This document shows, piece by piece, positions 18,276 to 33,091 of a stretch of DNA of 33,634 nt. The notes beneath the pieces were generated by a model that did no database searches, was not told the origin of the DNA, and was given only the letters and a program-made list of their open reading frames with translations. This DNA is from Lachnospiraceae bacterium (GTDB taxonomy: Bacteria > Bacillota > Clostridia > Lachnospirales > Lachnospiraceae): positions 1 to 33,634 of the forward strand of contig JAFXXN010000044.1 of the NCBI GenBank assembly GCA_017542245.1, written 5' to 3'. How positions within the stretch are numbered: the first letter of the stretch is position 1; the number at the start of each line of letters is the position of its first letter. The translations under genes and the position numbers were made by a program.

Positions 18276-19322
18276 ATGAGAGAATTCAATTATAGTAAAA
18301 TTGCAGAAATTAAATGGGATTCAGAGGTCCTTGGCCTTGTGGCAGGAATCTACAAAGAAGTAGGAAAACAGGAATTGTTTTTAAAGCAAAAGCCGGAAGA
18401 GTTAGATAAATTAATTGAAATAGCAAAGATACAGAGTACAGAAGCATCTAATGCTATAGAAGGTATTGTTACAACAAACTTCAGAATAAAACAGCTTGTT
18501 AAGGAAAAAACAACTCCAAGAAACAGGGAAGAGCAGGTAATAGCTGGATACAGAGATGTATTAAACACCATTCATGAGAGTTTTGATGTTATTCCAATAA
18601 CTCAGAGTTACATTCTTCAGCTGCATAAGATAATGTACAGTCATATGAATAATCCGTTAGCAGGAAGAACAAAAGTATCACAGAACTATATCAGTGCAAC
18701 ATATCCTGACGGGCATACAGATATCGTGTTTACTCCACTTGACCCTTTTGAAACACCGCAGGCACTTGACCGTATATGTGATGAGTATAACCGTATAATA
18801 GGAAACAATGAATTAGAGCCACTTATTGCCATACTGGTGTTCATTCACGATTTTTTGTGCATACATCCATTTAATGATGGTAACGGACGTATCAGCAGAT
18901 TACTGACAACGCTCTTGTTATACAGAAACGGATTCTATGTCGGTAAATACATTTCCCTGGAAGCAAAGATCAATAAGAACAAAGATCTGTATTATGATGC
19001 TTTATCATTGTCGCAGGAAGGATGGCATGAAGGAAAAGATAATCCGCTCCCATTTATCAAATACCTGCTGGGAACGATTCTTTCAGCTTATAAAGACTTT
19101 GAAGAACGTATTGAACTGGTAGAAGTAAAACGTTCTGCCTTAGAAACAGTGCAGATCGCCAGTAAAAACAAAGTAGGAAGATTTACAAAACAGGATATCA
19201 TAGAATTATGTCCGTCACTAAGTTTAAGTTCAATAGAAGGAGCGTTAAGAAAAATGGTGGCATCAGGAGAACTTGTCAGAGAAGGAACAGGAAATAAAAT
19301 TGAGTATTATCGAACAGAATAA
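18276..19322 (+). CDS. Fic family protein with N-terminal inhibitory motif
   Basis: Encodes 348 aa. The Fic core motif IHPFNDGNGRISRL (His197 to Arg205 and beyond) has the catalytic His and the phosphate-binding loop. SNAIEG at 58-63 matches the (S/T)xxxE(G/N) inhibitory helix, so it is a class II Fic with the inhibitor built in at the N-terminus. Such proteins attach AMP to target side chains when inhibition is relieved. Residues 290-345 look like a winged helix (FTKQDIIELCPSLSLSSIEGALRKMV), often DNA binding in this group. The gene is single and sits under a large palindrome. The AAGGAG ribosome site is 11 bases before the ATG, slightly far. Confidence 0.92.
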   Translation: MREFNYSKIAEIKWDSEVLGLVAGIYKEVGKQELFLKQKPEELDKLIEIAKIQSTEASNAIEGIVTTNFRIKQLVKEKTTPRNREEQVIAGYRDVLNTIHESFDVIPITQSYILQLHKIMYSHMNNPLAGRTKVSQNYISATYPDGHTDIVFTPLDPFETPQALDRICDEYNRIIGNNELEPLIAILVFIHDFLCIHPFNDGNGRISRLLTTLLLYRNGFYVGKYISLEAKINKNKDLYYDALSLSQEGWHEGKDNPLPFIKYLLGTILSAYKDFEERIELVEVKRSALETVQIASKNKVGRFTKQDIIELCPSLSLSSIEGALRKMVASGELVREGTGNKIEYYRTE

Positions 19323-20006: not shown

Positions 20007-21659
20007 ATGTTTATGATTAAGTTAAAGAATTTTTTAATTGTACTATTTTTCGGATTATTTGGGGTTCATAAGTTTATTGCAGGAGATTTGAAAACAGGCT
20101 TTTTGTATTTATTTACAGGGGGCTTATTTACTTTGGGTTGGTTTGTGGATATGCTAATGTGTTGGGTTTATGATGGGGATTACATTTACAAAGATAAAGA
20201 TAATAATAAAACTAGTAGCATCGCTAATGCTTCTACGCCTTCTGCTGATTCATTAGTGCTGGCCGCTTCACTAAATGGCTCTGTTAGTTCAGATAGCAGG
20301 TATGTTTCATATTTTAAGGATAAGTATCATATTGATGACTATTATCTTTTGACAACTTATAGGATTAAAGTTAATAACAATCCAAATATAAACTATAGAA
20401 CATTAGAACCCCAGGTAGATTCATATGACACCTATATAGATGATACTTGTGATGAGAATACAAAAAAGGAATTAGAGTATTATGGGCATAATTCTGATTA
20501 TTTGGTGAAAAGTAGGTTTATTTTTATAAATAGAGTTGAGTCATTGGCAACTTTACACATTGCTGTATATAAAAAAGAAGCTTTATCTTCAAAGAACCTT
20601 ATTTTGAATAAAACGTGCAGATTAGTATATGTCAATAAGAGCGAACGCCAAGAAGCTATTTTATTTACAGAAAAACAAGAAGAAGTAGAAATTGAACCAA
20701 ATGGTGTTGGAAGGATTATTATCACTGCTCATAACTGGCATGGTGGAGAAATGGGGGAAATCAGTGTTGCTGATTCTAAAGAAATATTACCTTATTTAAC
20801 CAATGAATTTGTTCATATAGTAACTGTAGAAAAAACACTGTGTAGTGCAAAACCATACGGAGCACTTATCAATTTCAAAATATATGCGAGATCAAAGGAT
20901 ATTCACATTTCTAATGAAATCAGCGAAAAAGAGATTTGCGATAGATTTGTTTCATACATAGCCGAAAATGACAATATTGATGCCGGATTAATTGATATTG
21001 TTAATAAGAGCTCAAACTACTCAACTATCACATATAAACATTGTGATATCCTTAGAATAAAGTGGACAGATCAGGAGAAATGGATACGTTTCTTTATGTC
21101 TCCTTCAATGAAAGAAAAATATCTTGATAGAGATGTCTTTGAAGACCAGCATAATAAAAATGAATCTTTCTGGATAAAGCATTTTTCCGCATATACAGAG
21201 CCAGAAACTTTTAGTGATATTGTTTTGGATGCAATAAAAACCATTGATGATTCTAAATCTCCTGAAGTGACAGGAGAAAATCGTATAATTGCTGAAGCTG
21301 CAAAGAAAGCAATAGCAAAACATACTAAAGATGACGAGAATTATTATGTTAATGTGGCTAATAAAACAGTGCTTATGTATTATGGGAAGTGCGTAATGAT
21401 GTTAGAATGGAAATTAATGAAAAACAAGCCTAATAGGTTATATATTGATTTAACAGAATTACAATTTAATAATCTAAAAAATCAAAATCTTATAAACGGA
21501 GATTATAAAGATTATCCAGGATATATAGAGTTTATAGACACAAGTATATTTGAAAAAATAGATCCTGTTATCAGTGTTAATTATCGTGATGCTATGAATC
21601 ATAAAGAAATTTATTTGAATTCATATCGTAGAGTGAAGGAACTCAGTAGAGAACTATAA
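20007..21659 (+). CDS. TM2-domain membrane protein with large unknown C-terminal region
   Basis: Encodes 550 aa. Residues 6-55 are a TM2 domain: two membrane helices with FFGLFGVHKFIAGDLKTG and a following GWFVDMLM, the usual pattern. A short Ser/Ala-rich linker (about 65-90) leads to a soluble region of about 460 residues, which I do not recognise. It contains RIKWTDQEKWIRFFMS and, near the end, a KTVLMYYGKCVMMLEWKLM strand-rich part. TM2 is usually found in small proteins, so a fusion to a large cytoplasmic module suggests a membrane sensor or effector. It is monocistronic with its own terminator and precedes the unknown/PLD pair. AT-rich codon use differs from genes left of 19.6 kb. Confidence 0.75.
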   Translation: MFMIKLKNFLIVLFFGLFGVHKFIAGDLKTGFLYLFTGGLFTLGWFVDMLMCWVYDGDYIYKDKDNNKTSSIANASTPSADSLVLAASLNGSVSSDSRYVSYFKDKYHIDDYYLLTTYRIKVNNNPNINYRTLEPQVDSYDTYIDDTCDENTKKELEYYGHNSDYLVKSRFIFINRVESLATLHIAVYKKEALSSKNLILNKTCRLVYVNKSERQEAILFTEKQEEVEIEPNGVGRIIITAHNWHGGEMGEISVADSKEILPYLTNEFVHIVTVEKTLCSAKPYGALINFKIYARSKDIHISNEISEKEICDRFVSYIAENDNIDAGLIDIVNKSSNYSTITYKHCDILRIKWTDQEKWIRFFMSPSMKEKYLDRDVFEDQHNKNESFWIKHFSAYTEPETFSDIVLDAIKTIDDSKSPEVTGENRIIAEAAKKAIAKHTKDDENYYVNVANKTVLMYYGKCVMMLEWKLMKNKPNRLYIDLTELQFNNLKNQNLINGDYKDYPGYIEFIDTSIFEKIDPVISVNYRDAMNHKEIYLNSYRRVKELSREL

Positions 21660-21784: not shown

Positions 21785-22082
21785 AGTTCGAGATTTCCTT
21801 AATATCTTTAAGAACCTAGAAGCTTCTGAAGAAATCAGAAATAGCAATACATAACTAAAACATCCTTAAAACTATCAAATCAAATCTCATATAAACGGAT
21901 AACCTTTTATGACAGCAAATTATTACGTGAAACAAGCACATTAAGGTGTTTTCAAACAGAATACAAAGCACCATCATAATGATTATTGATGTTTTTCTAT
22001 TGAAAAGAGGAATAACAAATCGCTAGGCAAAGCTCATTTTGATATAATCATTATGTAAAAGAGTTAATGGTGAAGATAATAG
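21785..22082 (+). promoter_or_regulatory. Gene-free leader with promoter of the unknown/PLD pair
   Basis: The stretch holds no gene. A TATAAT box lies at 22043-22048 in the context CATTTTGATATAATCATTA, with no good -35 at 22020. A very similar CATTTGATATAAT string precedes the XRE gene (26163-26174), hinting at common control. A GGTGA ribosome site lies 9 bases before the ATG at 22083. Confidence 0.5.
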
Positions 22083-23525
22083 ATGAGTAGAAACAAAGGA
22101 CCTCAAATCAATAATACAAGTAGAACTTTTACTACAAGAGACAGTGTTGGAATAGAAGGTATAGCCAACACTATTTCCGCTGATTTATGTCCAGTTGTTA
22201 ATACAGTTACGCCAAGACCATACTATTGGGCATTTATTACGTGGTGTTATTGGAAGTATTATCAGGCATTTGGCATTATTAAAGATGATGAAGTCAAAGA
22301 GTTTATAAGAAAACAAAACTACTTTATTTCGTTGGGGAACCTCATTGCTGGTAATAATGTTGTTGGTGGATTTACTGGAATCACTAATATTGAATCACGC
22401 AACGATTTACAACAGGAATCATTTGCTTATATCAATGACTATATTGCTGGAATAGGTGCGATGGGCTATTACATTCCAGGTTTAGAAACAATGGATCTTG
22501 TCACCAGACAAGATGTTAGAAATGGAATAGTGGTTGAAACATTCAAAGAACCGCATCTCAAGGCTCCTAGAGCTACAGATTTAGCTGAAGCATTTGATTC
22601 TGTGATTTCTTCAACAGAGTATTATAAACAGTATTTATTTGAAAACAGTGTTCCAAGAGATGTGTTAAAAAAACTAGGGAATACTGTTCAAATAGATATG
22701 AAAGGGTTTGATGAATGTAAGAGGCTTTTGATTCAATATCTCTTTGAGCGTGACAGACTAGAAAAATGCAAGAACTACATTCTGTGGATAAAGGATAAAT
22801 GTGGAATTGAAGCGTCATCTCTTGATATATGCAGGAAAGTCTTTTTCGACACCTTCTCTCCTCGAGCAGACAATAACGAACTTGATTTATCATTAAAAGA
22901 TACTTCAAGGGGATGGGAAGTACTAGTTGCCAGACAATATTTTACATTGGCTTTAGAAGTAATCTGGACGTATATGATGAACCAATTGATGGAACCAATG
23001 ACAAAAACAGAATGGATTTCCTGTTGCATTAACAGGCAAGTATTCTCGTATGATATTAATTCTCCACTAAACACAATTGTTGCTGATAGCAGAAAAAACG
23101 CTGCTGAAATTGAACAGTTATTTGCTGAAGAAAGAAGCGCAAAGGATAAACGTTCTTTTGAGCGAGGACTCACAATTCTGCTTTCGGTTTACAACAGACT
23201 TAATCAGAGAAAAGACTTCAACGAGCATCAACTCAAGTATTTTGATTATGGTACCGGTGGTTCAGTATCGTTTAATGAAGTGTTTAAAGTTATCGAAGAT
23301 TACAAGAACAGACCAATAAAGGACTTTTTGGCATATATTATGTTGCACTTCCTGATCAATCAGCATTTACAGACAGCTTTTGGGAAAATGTTGGACAACA
23401 GAGATGGATACTATATACAAGAAATGGATGGTAAGTATATCGCTGTTAGAGAATATGGATGGTTCTTCCAGGGCAATCGAATGGTGCAGCTTTACAGTGT
23501 AATGAAAGATTTGGATGTTATATAA
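22083..23525 (+). CDS. Unknown 480-aa protein paired with a PLD nuclease
   Basis: Encodes 480 aa, soluble, with no signal or clear membrane segment. The start TTRDSVGIEGIANTISADL, then PVVNTVTPRPYYWAFITW, and several aromatic-rich segments such as REYGWFFQGNRM are its clearest features. The early pattern (a conserved Asp-x-Gly, then a Pro-Arg-(Tyr/x)-Tyr aromatic cluster) is faintly like DUF6361-type proteins found near PLD nucleases in defence loci, but I cannot confirm this. Its stop codon directly abuts the ATG of the PLD gene, so the two are co-translated and probably form one complex. The role might be recognition or activation of the nuclease; this is inference. Confidence 0.7.
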   Translation: MSRNKGPQINNTSRTFTTRDSVGIEGIANTISADLCPVVNTVTPRPYYWAFITWCYWKYYQAFGIIKDDEVKEFIRKQNYFISLGNLIAGNNVVGGFTGITNIESRNDLQQESFAYINDYIAGIGAMGYYIPGLETMDLVTRQDVRNGIVVETFKEPHLKAPRATDLAEAFDSVISSTEYYKQYLFENSVPRDVLKKLGNTVQIDMKGFDECKRLLIQYLFERDRLEKCKNYILWIKDKCGIEASSLDICRKVFFDTFSPRADNNELDLSLKDTSRGWEVLVARQYFTLALEVIWTYMMNQLMEPMTKTEWISCCINRQVFSYDINSPLNTIVADSRKNAAEIEQLFAEERSAKDKRSFERGLTILLSVYNRLNQRKDFNEHQLKYFDYGTGGSVSFNEVFKVIEDYKNRPIKDFLAYIMLHFLINQHLQTAFGKMLDNRDGYYIQEMDGKYIAVREYGWFFQGNRMVQLYSVMKDLDVI

Positions 23526-26072
23526 ATGAAAACAGCAGATAATTCGATTTTAAGTGAAATTGAAAAGAGCAAGGGGTATGAAGTTGCATTGCTAACTACA
23601 TACAATTTTGAAGTGCCATTCTTTGAGAAGTATGTTTATGCACTTCTTGCTCAAAATAATATCAGACTGATCAATGTGTTTGTTGATTCTAAAGAATTGA
23701 ATATAGCCATTGAAGATGCATCGTCAGATATCTTAGGCAAAAAGTATTATGTAACACCAATAATGATAAATTCATCCTTCCATCCGAAAGTGATCCTGTT
23801 ATTGGGGGAAGATAAAGCAAAGCTCATTATATCCAGTGCTAATATCAAACAGTCCGGATACATACATAATAACGAAGTCTTCAATTCGTTCGAGTATTCT
23901 AAAAAGGATACGCAGTATGCAAGTATTATTATGTCTGCAATACAGTTTTTTAAAGACTTGTTTGATCTCAGCAAAAACTGTGATGAGGATACAAGGAAAA
24001 AATTGAATGAGTATCAATTGGAAGAGATAGCGAACGATACCTGCAGTCTATTGTTTAATACAAGACAGCCTATATTGTCTCAGGTAGCAAATCTAATCGA
24101 TGAGAAAGTTATCAAGACGAATATTGCTGTTCCATTCTATGATGATTCTTTAGAAGCATTGAGTAAGATCAAAGAACAGTTTGGTTGTGATAATATCAAT
24201 CTATATATTCAGAATAAAGCTAATACTTTTCCTATTGAATTTAATGAGCAGAATCATGTTCTTCCAAATGAAGCAATAAAAGTATTTGGCGAAGTAGCAT
24301 ATAACAAGTCAAAAAGCTTTTATCATGGGAAGGTCATTGAGTTTATTACTGACAATCATTCGTATATTTTATACGGCAGCACGAATTGTTCTTCGAGTGC
24401 ATTGACAAGAACATATCGCCAAAACGGTAATATTGAATGTGATGTTTTGATTTGTGATGAACCTGGAGCAAATATATACTTCTTTGATGAATTTGTATTG
24501 GATACAGAAAACAAATTGGAGAATGGTTTTCAAACAGAAGTCTCTGAATCTAAGAGTAAACTTGCGTTCCTATATGGAGAGACTTCGGATAGCGGTGTTA
24601 TCCTCTATTTTTCAGGTAAGCCAATTAATCCAACCAGAGCTTTTTTGCATGAACAGGAATTAGAAGTGGAATCTTTAGACAATATGCTAAAGATAGTGGT
24701 ACCGTTTAGATTACTCGCCAATGAAGGAAGCATCTTTGATATTGATTTGCAGATATTTGATCTCCGAGGGAGTATTAAATGCTGGTATAACGATAAATAT
24801 GAATTAAACAGAAACAGATATGATTTGAGTGAAATAGGATTGGCGGATTTTGATACAAGTTCCGATTTTGGCCAGTATCAGGAATACATAAGGGTATTAT
24901 TTGATAAACTCTACAATAATGAGAACTGGTATAAGATAGCAAAAGGGTATACAGCAGCTGTTGCTCCAGTGAAGAATCCGGACGATGTAGACGAAGAAGA
25001 TGTTGATGAGACCTATATTATCTATACGGATGGCAGCAATTCGTATATAGATAAGGAAATCAGTTATTCAATATACAAGAATGCCACTGCGTTCGCTGGG
25101 AGATACTTTAACAGCATTACAAAACAGCCTGTAAGCACACAGAAGAAACGCGATTTACCATTACAGTTTGATTATCCTAAACGAACAGTCCAACATAGAG
25201 AACCAACACCTACCGAAAAGAGATTTGAAAGAGTTTTTAAGCGACATATAAGCAAACAATTGCCTCTATTGGAAAATCCGGACATTAGTTATGATGAATG
25301 TATGATTCATTCCGGTATAATTCTTGACCTGATCAAAATGGTAAAAGATATTGAAGGTCTTGATGAGTGTTTTGATTCAGGTTATACCACAGACATAAAA
25401 TCCAAAATAGCACAGATCCTGCTTAAGAAAGCTATTGATGAGAATTCAGAAATTGATTTTGAAACGCTTGCTAGTTTTATACTGCTTGTGTTGTTTGAAA
25501 GAGATTATAACGGATTAAATGAAAATGAAACATGGGCATCAGAGAACATGTTATATCAGTTAAACCAGATCAAGGATATAAGAGATGGATTAGAAAAATA
25601 TATTAAAAACATAGACTATGGTGCTGTAGATTCTTCAGAGGGTCAAACGGTTTTACAGGCAAAAGCAATAGCTCATATAGAACGGTTGTATGGTTATAAA
25701 ACAAAACAACAATTGGAGGAGTATCTTAGGGGAGCGTTTGGAAACGGAATGAAGTTATCCATATTGGATAAAGAGATTATTATTGAACAAACAGTAGCAA
25801 GAGATAATCTACCATTCAATGGGATATCAGATAAACACATTCAAGAGATAAATAGTTATATAACAGGATATAAACTGCACATTTCAAGAATTACTATTAC
25901 TTATTACGTTGCTGGATCAAGAGATCGTATGGAATATCAAATGAAAACAGATGGTCGAAATGCATCACAAGTGTATAGAAAGCAATATCTTGCTGGTAAT
26001 AATCTCTCTTTCAGGTGTTTTTTGAAAAACAAGATTTGGAAGTATGAACCCAACACAAGAAAAAAGATCTAA
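23526..26072 (+). CDS. Phospholipase D superfamily nuclease-like protein, 848 aa
   Basis: Two PLD half-sites are visible. The first has HPK (86-88), SSAN (103-106) and Glu117; the second has HGK (267-269), GSTN (284-287) and NIE (302-304). Together they give the HxK...S-x-N...E arrangement of PLD nucleases with two sites in one chain. The C-terminal 500 residues are not recognised. They include a PTPTEKRFERVFKRHIS segment and a helical stretch with acidic Leu-rich repeats. No helicase motif is present, unlike DISARM or Mokosh PLD proteins. It starts with no spacer after the 480-aa gene and ends at a strong terminator. It likely cuts DNA or RNA when triggered, as inferred from the fold. Confidence 0.8.
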   Translation: MKTADNSILSEIEKSKGYEVALLTTYNFEVPFFEKYVYALLAQNNIRLINVFVDSKELNIAIEDASSDILGKKYYVTPIMINSSFHPKVILLLGEDKAKLIISSANIKQSGYIHNNEVFNSFEYSKKDTQYASIIMSAIQFFKDLFDLSKNCDEDTRKKLNEYQLEEIANDTCSLLFNTRQPILSQVANLIDEKVIKTNIAVPFYDDSLEALSKIKEQFGCDNINLYIQNKANTFPIEFNEQNHVLPNEAIKVFGEVAYNKSKSFYHGKVIEFITDNHSYILYGSTNCSSSALTRTYRQNGNIECDVLICDEPGANIYFFDEFVLDTENKLENGFQTEVSESKSKLAFLYGETSDSGVILYFSGKPINPTRAFLHEQELEVESLDNMLKIVVPFRLLANEGSIFDIDLQIFDLRGSIKCWYNDKYELNRNRYDLSEIGLADFDTSSDFGQYQEYIRVLFDKLYNNENWYKIAKGYTAAVAPVKNPDDVDEEDVDETYIIYTDGSNSYIDKEISYSIYKNATAFAGRYFNSITKQPVSTQKKRDLPLQFDYPKRTVQHREPTPTEKRFERVFKRHISKQLPLLENPDISYDECMIHSGIILDLIKMVKDIEGLDECFDSGYTTDIKSKIAQILLKKAIDENSEIDFETLASFILLVLFERDYNGLNENETWASENMLYQLNQIKDIRDGLEKYIKNIDYGAVDSSEGQTVLQAKAIAHIERLYGYKTKQQLEEYLRGAFGNGMKLSILDKEIIIEQTVARDNLPFNGISDKHIQEINSYITGYKLHISRITITYYVAGSRDRMEYQMKTDGRNASQVYRKQYLAGNNLSFRCFLKNKIWKYEPNTRKKI

Positions 26073-26096: not shown

Positions 26097-26126
26097 AAAT
26101 CGGTGTTGATGGACACCGGTTTTTTC
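26097..26126 (+). terminator. Terminator of the unknown/PLD pair
   Basis: CGGTGT (26101-26106) and ACACCG (26113-26118), extended by A-T and G-U pairs from 26097, form the stem, followed by GTTTTTTC. It starts 25 bases past the PLD stop, so the pair is a self-contained two-gene unit. Confidence 0.85.
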
Positions 26127-26213: not shown

Positions 26214-26420
26214 ATGCAAGAAGTTAGCTATGAAAAGCTCTGGCGAAAACTCGAAGAGAACAACATGAAAAAGACTGATTTGTATTGGAAAGTGCATATC
26301 AGTACAAATGCAATTGCTAAAATGGGTAAAAACGAAGATATCAGGGTAAACATATTGGTTAAAATCTGTAAGTACTTTGATTGCAAATTTGATGATATTG
26401 TAGAAATTGTTAAAGAATAA
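26214..26420 (+). CDS. Small XRE-family (Cro/CI-type) regulator
   Basis: Encodes 68 aa, almost only a helix-turn-helix domain: YEKLWRKLEENNMKKTDLYW, then HISTNAIAKMGKNED and a LVKICKYFDCKFDDI end. This is a well-known small regulator type in Bacillota, often found beside restriction-modification or phage defence genes. It likely binds the palindrome just upstream and controls itself and the genes that follow. The next gene (membrane protein) begins 81 bases downstream, with no terminator seen, so XRE, membrane protein and hsd genes could be one long unit. Confidence 0.88.
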   Translation: MQEVSYEKLWRKLEENNMKKTDLYWKVHISTNAIAKMGKNEDIRVNILVKICKYFDCKFDDIVEIVKE

Positions 26421-30087: not shown

Positions 30088-31602
30088 ATGCCAAATAAAA
30101 ACGATAATGTAGAAGAAACAACCAGTCAAAAGCTGTTTTCTCATCTATTTGAAGCATGTAATATTTTAAGAGGACCAATAAATCAAGATGAGTATAAAAG
30201 TTATGTAACACCTATACTGTTCTTTAAAAGGCTGTCAGATGTATATGATGAAGAAACCCAGATAGCTTTACGTGAATCTGATGGTGATGAAGAGTATGCG
30301 GCTTTTGAAGAAAACCATAGATTTCAAATACCAGATGGATGTCATTGGAACGATGTAAGAGAAGTAAGCGAAAATGTAGGAACAGCCATAGTCAACGCAA
30401 TGTATGGTATAGAAAGAGCAAATCCCGATACACTGAATGGAGTTTTCAGTAGTTTTGATGATGCTAACTGGACAGATAAATCAAAGCTTTCTGATGAAAG
30501 GCTTAAGGATTTGATAGAACACATGTCCAAAATTAAAGTAGGGAACAACAATTATCCTGCAGATGTAATGGGTGATAGTTACGAGTTTTTAATCAAGAAG
30601 TTTGCTGATTTATCTAAAAAGAATGCCGGCGAATTCTACACCCCAAGATCAATAGTAAAATTGTTGATTATGTTAATGAAACCTCAACCAGGTGATACAG
30701 TATACGACCCAGCCTGTGGAACTGGGGGTATGCTTATCGAAGCTATTCGTTATATGAATAACGATAAACTGACATATGGCAAGATATATGGACAAGAGAA
30801 TAATCTGGCCACCTCAGCTATTGCAAGAATGAATTTGTTCCTACATGGTGCGAGAGACTTTAAAATTGCCCAGGGCGATACTTTAAGAAACCCGTACTTT
30901 TTAGAAAAAGGAAAATTAAAAACTTTTGATTGTGTCGTAGCGAACCCTCCATTCTCTTTAAAGAATTGGGGCGCATCACAATTCAGCACAGATATTTATG
31001 GTAGAAACATATGGGGATGCCCAACTGATTCAAATGCTGATTTCGCTTGGCTGCAACATATGGTTAAGTCGATGGATGATAAAAATGGTCGTTGTGCTGT
31101 CGTGCTTCCTCAAGGAGTGTTATTTAGAACAACCGGAAAAGAAGGAGAGATTAGAAAACAGCTTATTGAATCTGATAAATTAGAAGCGGTGATAACGCTA
31201 ACCAGTGGTGTTTTCTATTCTACTGGTGTTTCAGCCTGCATTTTGTTCTTGAATAATCATAAAGAGCATAGCCATAAAGGCAGAATATGTTTAATTGATG
31301 CTACTAACATATACACGCCGCAAAGAGCACAAAACATTATGACTGAAGAGGATATTCAGGAAGTATACAAACATTATATTGATTACACTAACAAGATTAA
31401 TGTATCCAAAGTTGTTACTTTGGAAGATGTGAGGAATAAAGATTATACTCTTGCAGTAAACGTGTATATTGAGAAAGAACAAAAAGAAACTGCTTCTCCT
31501 GCTGAGGTTAGAAAGCAGTTCTATCAGGCTTATGAAGAAATGAGAAAAGCGGAAAACAAGATGAAAGAGTTGCTTGTCAAAGGAGGATATGTAAGTGAGT
31601 AA
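30088..31602 (+). CDS. hsdM: Type I DNA methyltransferase M subunit, first copy
   Basis: Encodes 504 aa. An N-terminal HsdM_N domain (LFFKRLSDVYDEE) precedes EFYTPR (182-187), the SAM-binding DPACGTGG (207-214) and the catalytic NPPF (286-289). These are the motifs of N6-adenine methyltransferases of type I systems. All motifs are intact and the length is normal. It starts 11 bases after hsdR with a GAGG site and overlaps the second M gene by 8 bases. With HsdS it would protect host DNA and form the restriction complex. It is clearly a different protein from the second copy, though homologous along its length. Confidence 0.95.
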   Translation: MPNKNDNVEETTSQKLFSHLFEACNILRGPINQDEYKSYVTPILFFKRLSDVYDEETQIALRESDGDEEYAAFEENHRFQIPDGCHWNDVREVSENVGTAIVNAMYGIERANPDTLNGVFSSFDDANWTDKSKLSDERLKDLIEHMSKIKVGNNNYPADVMGDSYEFLIKKFADLSKKNAGEFYTPRSIVKLLIMLMKPQPGDTVYDPACGTGGMLIEAIRYMNNDKLTYGKIYGQENNLATSAIARMNLFLHGARDFKIAQGDTLRNPYFLEKGKLKTFDCVVANPPFSLKNWGASQFSTDIYGRNIWGCPTDSNADFAWLQHMVKSMDDKNGRCAVVLPQGVLFRTTGKEGEIRKQLIESDKLEAVITLTSGVFYSTGVSACILFLNNHKEHSHKGRICLIDATNIYTPQRAQNIMTEEDIQEVYKHYIDYTNKINVSKVVTLEDVRNKDYTLAVNVYIEKEQKETASPAEVRKQFYQAYEEMRKAENKMKELLVKGGYVSE

Positions 31603-33091
31603 TAGGATTTCTATCGAAGAATTACAGTCATATCTTTGGAACTCTGCAGTACTACTGAGAACAAATATTGATGCCGGATCGTATAAACAATACATTTTCC
31701 CCCTTTTGTTTTTCAAAAGAATCTGTGATGTGTATGATGAAGAAACTCAAAATGCGATAAAAGAATATGGTGAAGATGCTAAAGAATTTGAAGAAAACGA
31801 AATCCATTCTTTCATAGTACCTAAGGGATATCATTGGAACGATGTAAGAAATGTATCTGAAGATGTTGGTGTTGCGATCGTCAATGCATTCAGAGCAATA
31901 GAAAAAACAAATTCTGACAAATTACAGGGTATCTTTGGCGATGGAACATGGACAAACAAAAACAGATTGCCTGATAGGTTACTTAAAGATTTGCTTGAGC
32001 ATTTTAGTAGTAAAACCCTCTCAATAGAGAATTGCCCAGAGGATGAGCTTGGACAAGGTTACGAGTATTTGATCAAGAAATTTGCTGATGATAGCGGTCA
32101 CACTGCACAAGAGTTTTATACTAACAGAACAGTAGTTCATTTAATGACAGAGATCTTAAAACCTAAATCAGGTGAATCAATTTATGATCCAACTTGTGGT
32201 AGTGCTGGTATGTTAATCTCATCAATTGCCTATATAAAAGATAGAGAAGAAGAATGGCGAAATGTTGCTGTATATGGTCAGGAGATAAACGCTCTTACTT
32301 CTGCGATAGGAAGAATGAATTTATTCCTACATGGAGTAAAAGATTTTAGTATTGTTAATGGAGATACTCTGAAAAATCCTGCATTTATTGAAAACAATAA
32401 GTTAAAACAATTTGATTTAGTGCTGGCTAATCCACCATACTCCATTAGTCAATGGGATAGAGCAGCATTTGAAACTGACAAGTATGGAAGGAACTTTTTA
32501 GGAGTTCCCCCTCAGGGAAGAGCGGATTATGCATTTATACAACATATACTCAAAAGCCTGAAGAAAGATACTGGTAGATGTGCCATACTTCTTCCACATG
32601 GTGTGCTATTCAGAAATGAGGAAGTTACTATGAGAGAAAGACTTGTGAAAAGTGATTTATTAGATTGCATAATAGGCCTTGCTCCAAACCTCTTTTATAA
32701 TTCCCCAATGGAAGCTTGTATCATTATTTGTAGAACAAGTAAAGCTGTTGAAAAGAGGGGACAAGTGTTATTCATTAATGCTATTAATGAAGTCGAGAGA
32801 AAAAATGCACAAAGTATGCTAAGAGATGACCACATTCGCCACATAGCCGATGCATATAATAATTACAAAGATGAAACTGGTTTTGCTAAAGTAGCTACTA
32901 TTGATGATATTGCTGCTAACAACTACTCATTGAGTATTCCATTATATGTAAAACAGGATCTTTCGGTTGAAGAAAAAGATGAAAGAACACTCCAGGAAAT
33001 GTTCGACTCGTGGTATTCATCTTCTGATATGGTGAAGTTAAACTATGAAAAACTCTTTTCAATGATTGAAGGTGGTGAAAAAGATGGGTAA
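31595..33091 (+). CDS. hsdM: Type I DNA methyltransferase M subunit, second copy
   Basis: Encodes 498 aa from a GTG start with an AGGAGG site 8 bases upstream, inside the end of the first M gene. Motifs are EFYTNR (173-178), DPTCGSAG (198-205) and NPPY (279-282); all key positions remain, with slightly unusual DPTCGSAG. The order and spacing of blocks match the first copy (for example HWNDVR, YGQE, RMNLFLHG, GDTL), but most other residues differ, so this is an old duplication or a captured gene. It overlaps hsdS by 8 bases, an arrangement usual for a normal hsdM. Whether both subunits join one complex is open. Confidence 0.95.
   Translation: MSNRISIEELQSYLWNSAVLLRTNIDAGSYKQYIFPLLFFKRICDVYDEETQNAIKEYGEDAKEFEENEIHSFIVPKGYHWNDVRNVSEDVGVAIVNAFRAIEKTNSDKLQGIFGDGTWTNKNRLPDRLLKDLLEHFSSKTLSIENCPEDELGQGYEYLIKKFADDSGHTAQEFYTNRTVVHLMTEILKPKSGESIYDPTCGSAGMLISSIAYIKDREEEWRNVAVYGQEINALTSAIGRMNLFLHGVKDFSIVNGDTLKNPAFIENNKLKQFDLVLANPPYSISQWDRAAFETDKYGRNFLGVPPQGRADYAFIQHILKSLKKDTGRCAILLPHGVLFRNEEVTMRERLVKSDLLDCIIGLAPNLFYNSPMEACIIICRTSKAVEKRGQVLFINAINEVERKNAQSMLRDDHIRHIADAYNNYKDETGFAKVATIDDIAANNYSLSIPLYVKQDLSVEEKDERTLQEMFDSWYSSSDMVKLNYEKLFSMIEGGEKDG

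Follow-up and report, generated by a model that had tools for sequence, protein, structure and literature searches.

Two adjoining genes, A and B, were analyzed in a DNA stretch of 33,634 nucleotides (hereafter, the window), contig JAFXXN010000044.1 of a Lachnospiraceae bacterium (assembly GCA_017542245.1). Both genes are on the + strand and are separated by 0 bases, which bears out the original prediction of two abutting frames of 480 and 848 residues. That prediction, made from the letters alone, had interpreted them as a sensor/activator plus nuclease defence system, possibly undescribed, and this interpretation is partly supported by the results below. The genes and the two parts of the B protein are as follows, L041 being the locus with the nearest relatives:

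22083..23525, + strand: gene A, an open reading frame (ORF) for 480 aa, remote relative of ZacA/DUF6361 and proposed recognition or licensing subunit.
23526..26072, + strand: gene B, an ORF for 848 aa, phospholipase D (PLD)-superfamily protein with two half-sites and proposed nuclease subunit.
23541..24525, + strand: bilobal PLD domain in the predicted model, B residues about 6–333, holding H86/K88 and H267/K269.
24526..26069, + strand: fast-changing part, B residues 334–848, recognized by a low predicted local distance difference test score and a drop in identity to L041 B.

To describe the pair across genomes, 33 loci reached via B were compared: the window, 18 plasmid records, genome G372, 12 genome contigs, and 1 viral contig. 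B was present in 26 plasmid records, 18 of which were included; H5, H6, H13, H16, H21, H22, H25, and H26 are outside the count. The window and L010–L020 supplied the sequences for the search profiles, so that matches there are obtained by construction; the remaining loci had no part in the profiles and give independent matches. An A homologue was present at 33/33 loci, and in 29 it was an uninterrupted frame directly upstream of B. The order was reversed (B then A) in L021 and L047 (Rhizobium and Sphingomonas plasmids), which group in the B tree with 99% support. In L033 (370–3327), the 5′ part of A was lost near a transposase-like ORF and what is left of it shares a reading frame with B, and in L048, A was split over two frames. 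L021 and L035 had been wrongly taken for loci without A; it was found at both on re-examination. Among the loci of the main frame comparison, the A and B frames overlapped by 4 bases in 12 and abutted with 0 bases in the window, L040, and L041. For 21 loci, the tree of A matched that of B (Mantel r 0.97, 0/9999 permutations, 13/18 splits in common). The window and L041 formed one group with 100% support in the B tree, with identities of 41% and 36% for A and B, respectively. Because L040 and L041 are near-copies (485/487 and 838/841 identical residues in A and B, respectively) and L010, L030, L031, and L038 are close to one another, the counts overstate independence. Conserved pairing and co-inheritance were established by this comparison, and the predicted two-gene module is supported.

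The near-identical pairs of L040 and L041 occur in two metagenome-assembled genomes (MAGs), one labelled Bacilli and the other Clostridia, and so point to transfer or a binning error.

The B protein contains both PLD half-sites at the predicted positions: H86-P-K88, S103-S-A-N106, and N115-x-E117 in the first, and H267-G-K269, G284-S-T-N287, and N302-x-E304 in the second. In the alignment of 12 B proteins, 11 of the 12 catalytic-type positions were invariant, and N287 was found in 11/12 rows and replaced by K in one, a conservation far beyond chance. With two HxK...N...E/D half-sites per chain and a bilobal PLD fold in the predicted model, B has the features of the two-half-site PLD superfamily; conserved active-site residues and a predicted fold are established here. 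Catalysis by PLD enzymes proceeds via a histidine intermediate and is metal-independent. No Walker A/P-loop motif was found in A or B. Outside the PLD domain, residues 334–848 were modelled with low confidence as a beta-rich stretch, a linker without structure, a helical region, and a small terminal alpha/beta part, and identity to L041 B fell from 46% to 28–29% in this C-terminal part.

The original prediction did not recognise A and took the system as possibly undescribed; this needs correction, as both genes have known kin. Window B was matched by the PDC-M27B model (2e-10 over B 82–312), by the ZacB model (3.6e-7, best stretch B 267–334; the cut-off of PADLOC itself is not known for this model), and, below threshold, by PLDc_2 (4.3e-5). 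Over the 12 B relatives, the ZacB, PDC-M27B, and DrmC models matched 12/12, 11/12, and up to 8/12 proteins, respectively. Window A showed no above-cut-off match to any Pfam or NCBIfam family, and the PDC-M27 models did not match A. The PADLOC ZacA model gave weak matches in 9/12 A proteins, with a best value of 1.5e-5 and an E-value of 0.019 for window A. The A relatives have a common N-terminal motif in which D20, G23, P37, T43, R45, Y48, and W54 are invariant in the alignment. The A-type protein of genome G018 is a clear ZacA (1.5e-135) with the Pfam domain DUF6361 (1.8e-67), and hhalign of the A family gave probabilities of 63.6 over 64 columns against this protein and 95.7 over 152 columns against G372 A. 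Thus, A remotely resembles ZacA/DUF6361; a role as sensor/activator is one that we infer. Window A and L041 A both end before the tail that is present in the other aligned relatives. Window A was rejected as a broken copy since its nearest relative, L041 A, ends at almost the same position.

Zac (ZacA-ZacB-ZacC) is included in PADLOC-DB 2.0.0, and PDC-M27 is a PADLOC candidate with B and C models; the kind of module is therefore already known, and its present form is weakly detected by the PADLOC models. A match of both genes to a named system, which would have refuted the original suggestion, is only weakly borne out: window A reaches no better than E 0.019 with ZacA, and the window's own genome (G000) gave no ZacA match at E <= 0.001. 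The window pair is similar to Zac in the order of an A-like gene followed by a PLD protein and in the ZacB and weak ZacA matches of the relatives, and differs from it in that window A falls well short of a clear match to ZacA, that B has 848 rather than 622 aa, and that the Zac locus of G018 has a ZacC helicase. PDC-M27 is similar in B and in the triple of G372, which has a PDC-M27C-like helicase; the window pair is without a helicase, and A matches no M27 model. The half-site region of B also resembles DISARM DrmC (4.2e-4), but window B scored 14.3 bits against the NCBIfam cut-off of 133 bits, and it differs in having a pair of half-sites, an extensive C-terminal region, and A as its partner.

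A third gene for a helicase was identified in two relatives. In L027 (G018), ZacA and ZacB are followed by ZacC, a 1073-aa helicase, and in G372, A and B are followed by an SNF2 helicase that overlaps B by 4 bases and matches PDC-M27C (1e-44). The only helicase near the pair in the window is HsdR, which is two other genes away and matches REase_I models; ZacC and M27C had no match among the nine window proteins scanned, the rest of G000 not having been searched for ZacC. When three such helicases were used as queries against the ORFs of 27 loci, a best match was obtained only in L017, L027, L028, and L041. The relatives in L017 (DrmD-like) and L041 lie upstream of the pair, as does another in L045 (ZorD-like), and the gene 19 bases after B in L013 is HsdR. 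Helicase_C was present in 17 of 21 records, and among plasmids only W08 (L017) has one <=10 kb from the pair, the mapping to loci in this count covering the plasmids. The absence of a P-loop in A and B and of an adjacent ZacC-type helicase is established here. The helicase-free state noted in the original prediction holds next to the window pair; it is the feature by which the pair stands apart from Zac and PDC-M27, and is no sign of an unrelated system. The length of B was 778–889 aa in 22 loci including the window, 649 aa in G372, and 622 aa in G018. The most economical reading is that A-B would be a two-subunit defence nuclease akin to Zac and PDC-M27, from which the missing helicase and, mostly, a longer B distinguish it. 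L021 and L046 depart from the length pattern: their B proteins are shorter (598 aa and at most 732 aa, respectively) and no helicase relative was found, and thus B length and helicase split imperfectly.

The pair was found in Halobacteria, Alpha- and Betaproteobacteria, Bacteroidota, and Actinomycetota, and in MAGs labelled Bacilli and Clostridia. By single-protein searches, window A was detected in 2/398 genomes of the phylum (its own and G018) and window B in 1/398 (its own). In these searches, window A had no match in plasmids or viral contigs, and window B had none in phages and none confirmed in genome contigs. The B profile detected 4/398 phylum genomes, namely the window's own, G372, G080, and G235; the PLD proteins of G080 and G235 (384 and 372 aa, respectively) were dropped from the counts as only one half-site matched. 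A profile of the window and L041 detected 0/290 other genomes of the class and nothing in the viral-contig scans. The window's branch is rare in the samples examined. The pair in L042 is on an IMG/VR contig and may be prophage-borne. The literature searched, which did not include preprints outside PMC, described neither the pair nor its catalogued kin, and an explanation of the name Zac was not found. Searches for DUF6361, PDC-M27, ZacA with phage, and PADLOC with Zac yielded nothing, and those for the names ZacA, ZacB, and ZacC yielded only unrelated papers among the matches listed.

In at least 11/33 loci, the pair has relatives of known defence genes next to it, chosen neighbours having been scanned. 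This establishes frequent defence neighbours and agrees with the predicted defence setting in other genomes. Type I restriction-modification (RM) genes or their relatives were near the pair in 7/33 loci (the window, L010, L013, L016, L035, L036, and L038). Other neighbours were GajA and GajB in L038, ZorD in L045, QatB/C/D in L048, a type IIG RM in L041, and DrmD in L017. For the CHAT, NACHT, Sir2, and AbiEii neighbours that were scanned, PADLOC models gave no match within the limits applied. When N6_Mtase was counted over the whole of 11 plasmid records, 5/12 matches were within 10 kb of the pair versus 2.6 expected, a weak enrichment.

These results lead us to favour, by a modest degree, the interpretation that A and B are the two subunits of a mobile defence module of the Zac/PDC-M27 kind, in a branch that has no helicase. 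A and B would be made together and would form a complex. B would be a PLD-superfamily phosphodiesterase of two lobes, with both half-sites contributing to a single active site, and would cut nucleic acid without ATP. A may bind B or its target and thereby restrain or direct the nuclease, which would then act on invading DNA or infection intermediates; recognition would be carried by the fast-changing last 500 residues of B and the C-terminal half of A. A broader proposal is more tentative and falls short of probable: A-B may be a self-sufficient, ATP-independent two-subunit immune nuclease of archaea and bacteria, unnamed as a system, in which, within the Zac/PDC-M27 group, the helicase was lost or never present and invaders are recognized via A together with the C-terminal part of B, which is variable.

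Alternatively, the pair could be an RM accessory that assists an adjacent type I RM system by completing the destruction of DNA that is cleaved or stalled. The seven loci with type I RM genes or relatives, the RM operon downstream of the pair in the window, and the order M-S-A-B-R in L013, where the pair is inside and HsdR follows B, are consistent with this. However, no type I RM relative was found in the flanks of most loci, other loci adjoin Zorya, Qat, Gabija, or DISARM-type genes, and a terminator-like site, a helix-turn-helix (HTH) gene, and a 192-aa gene lie between the pair and the RM in the window. We consider this explanation improbable. A toxin-antitoxin or abortive-infection pair, with B as a host-toxic nuclease kept inactive by A until infection, would account for the tight coupling of the genes, and the winged-helix match (HTH_45, 8.6e-6) at the end of 1/12 A relatives is of a type often found in regulators. 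Nevertheless, A is a large protein of 480 aa whose conservation extends past a binding tail, and the A proteins of the window and L041 end before the winged-helix tail, which makes this alternative unlikely as well. A mobile-element-borne DNA-repair module clearing blocked or protein-linked ends, like tyrosyl-DNA phosphodiesterase, is very improbable: PF06087 (the family of tyrosyl-DNA phosphodiesterase 1, TDP1) had no match to window B at E <= 1, identity was 12–16% in the TDP1 rows, the pair has a partner gene and about 500 more residues, the matching family models are defence PLD proteins (ZacB, PDC-M27B, and DrmC), and the distribution is mobile and patchy.

If A and B form a helicase-free defence module, two genes are enough for the nuclease core of a group of catalogued defence candidates with helicase plus PLD to work. 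The licensing of a PLD nuclease against invaders in the absence of an ATPase could then be studied in a small unit. DUF6361, of unknown function, and its kin would be tied to a nuclease partner, and search models would become available for a branch only weakly detected by PADLOC-DB 2.0.0.

The GC content of the contig is 0.39–0.45 in the first 15.5 kb and 0.32–0.36 from 16.5 kb on, and the pair is in the low-GC part. As predicted, this AT-rich setting has a TM2-domain gene upstream of the pair and a type I restriction operon downstream, the latter after an HTH gene and the 192-aa gene, in this order. The window is the whole contig, and thus the island continues past the contig end. The restriction operon has tandem full-length genes for HsdM-type N6 methylases (30088–31602 and 31595–33091) with a mutual phmmer match of about 1e-135, and the next ORF is cut by the contig end. 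In the TM2-domain protein (20007–21659), about 500 residues had no match to any Pfam, PADLOC, or NCBIfam model. The Fic gene farther upstream (18276–19322), in the same low-GC stretch, matched the SoFic model (1.2e-37).

Two putative signals flank the pair:

22040..22048, + strand: possible extended -10 (TGATATAAT) 5′ of A, read by eye and absent from the scan list.
26097..26122, + strand: terminator-like hairpin 3′ of B, 11 pairs (4 GC) followed by a T-run.

The prediction of an own -10 box and a strong terminator stands insofar as TGATATAAT is readable and the hairpin exists; promoter-like sites do not exceed the shuffles, with 20 observed in the region versus 27.0 expected, and 3 terminator-like sites were observed versus 2.3 expected. 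The latter count and the lack of a -35 with the extended -10 are weaker points. A promoter before A and a terminator after B are plausible, not demonstrated. A small HTH_26 gene (26214–26420) follows the pair, and TTTGATATAAT upstream of it is a repeat of the -10 region before A, so that its control might be common with that of the pair.
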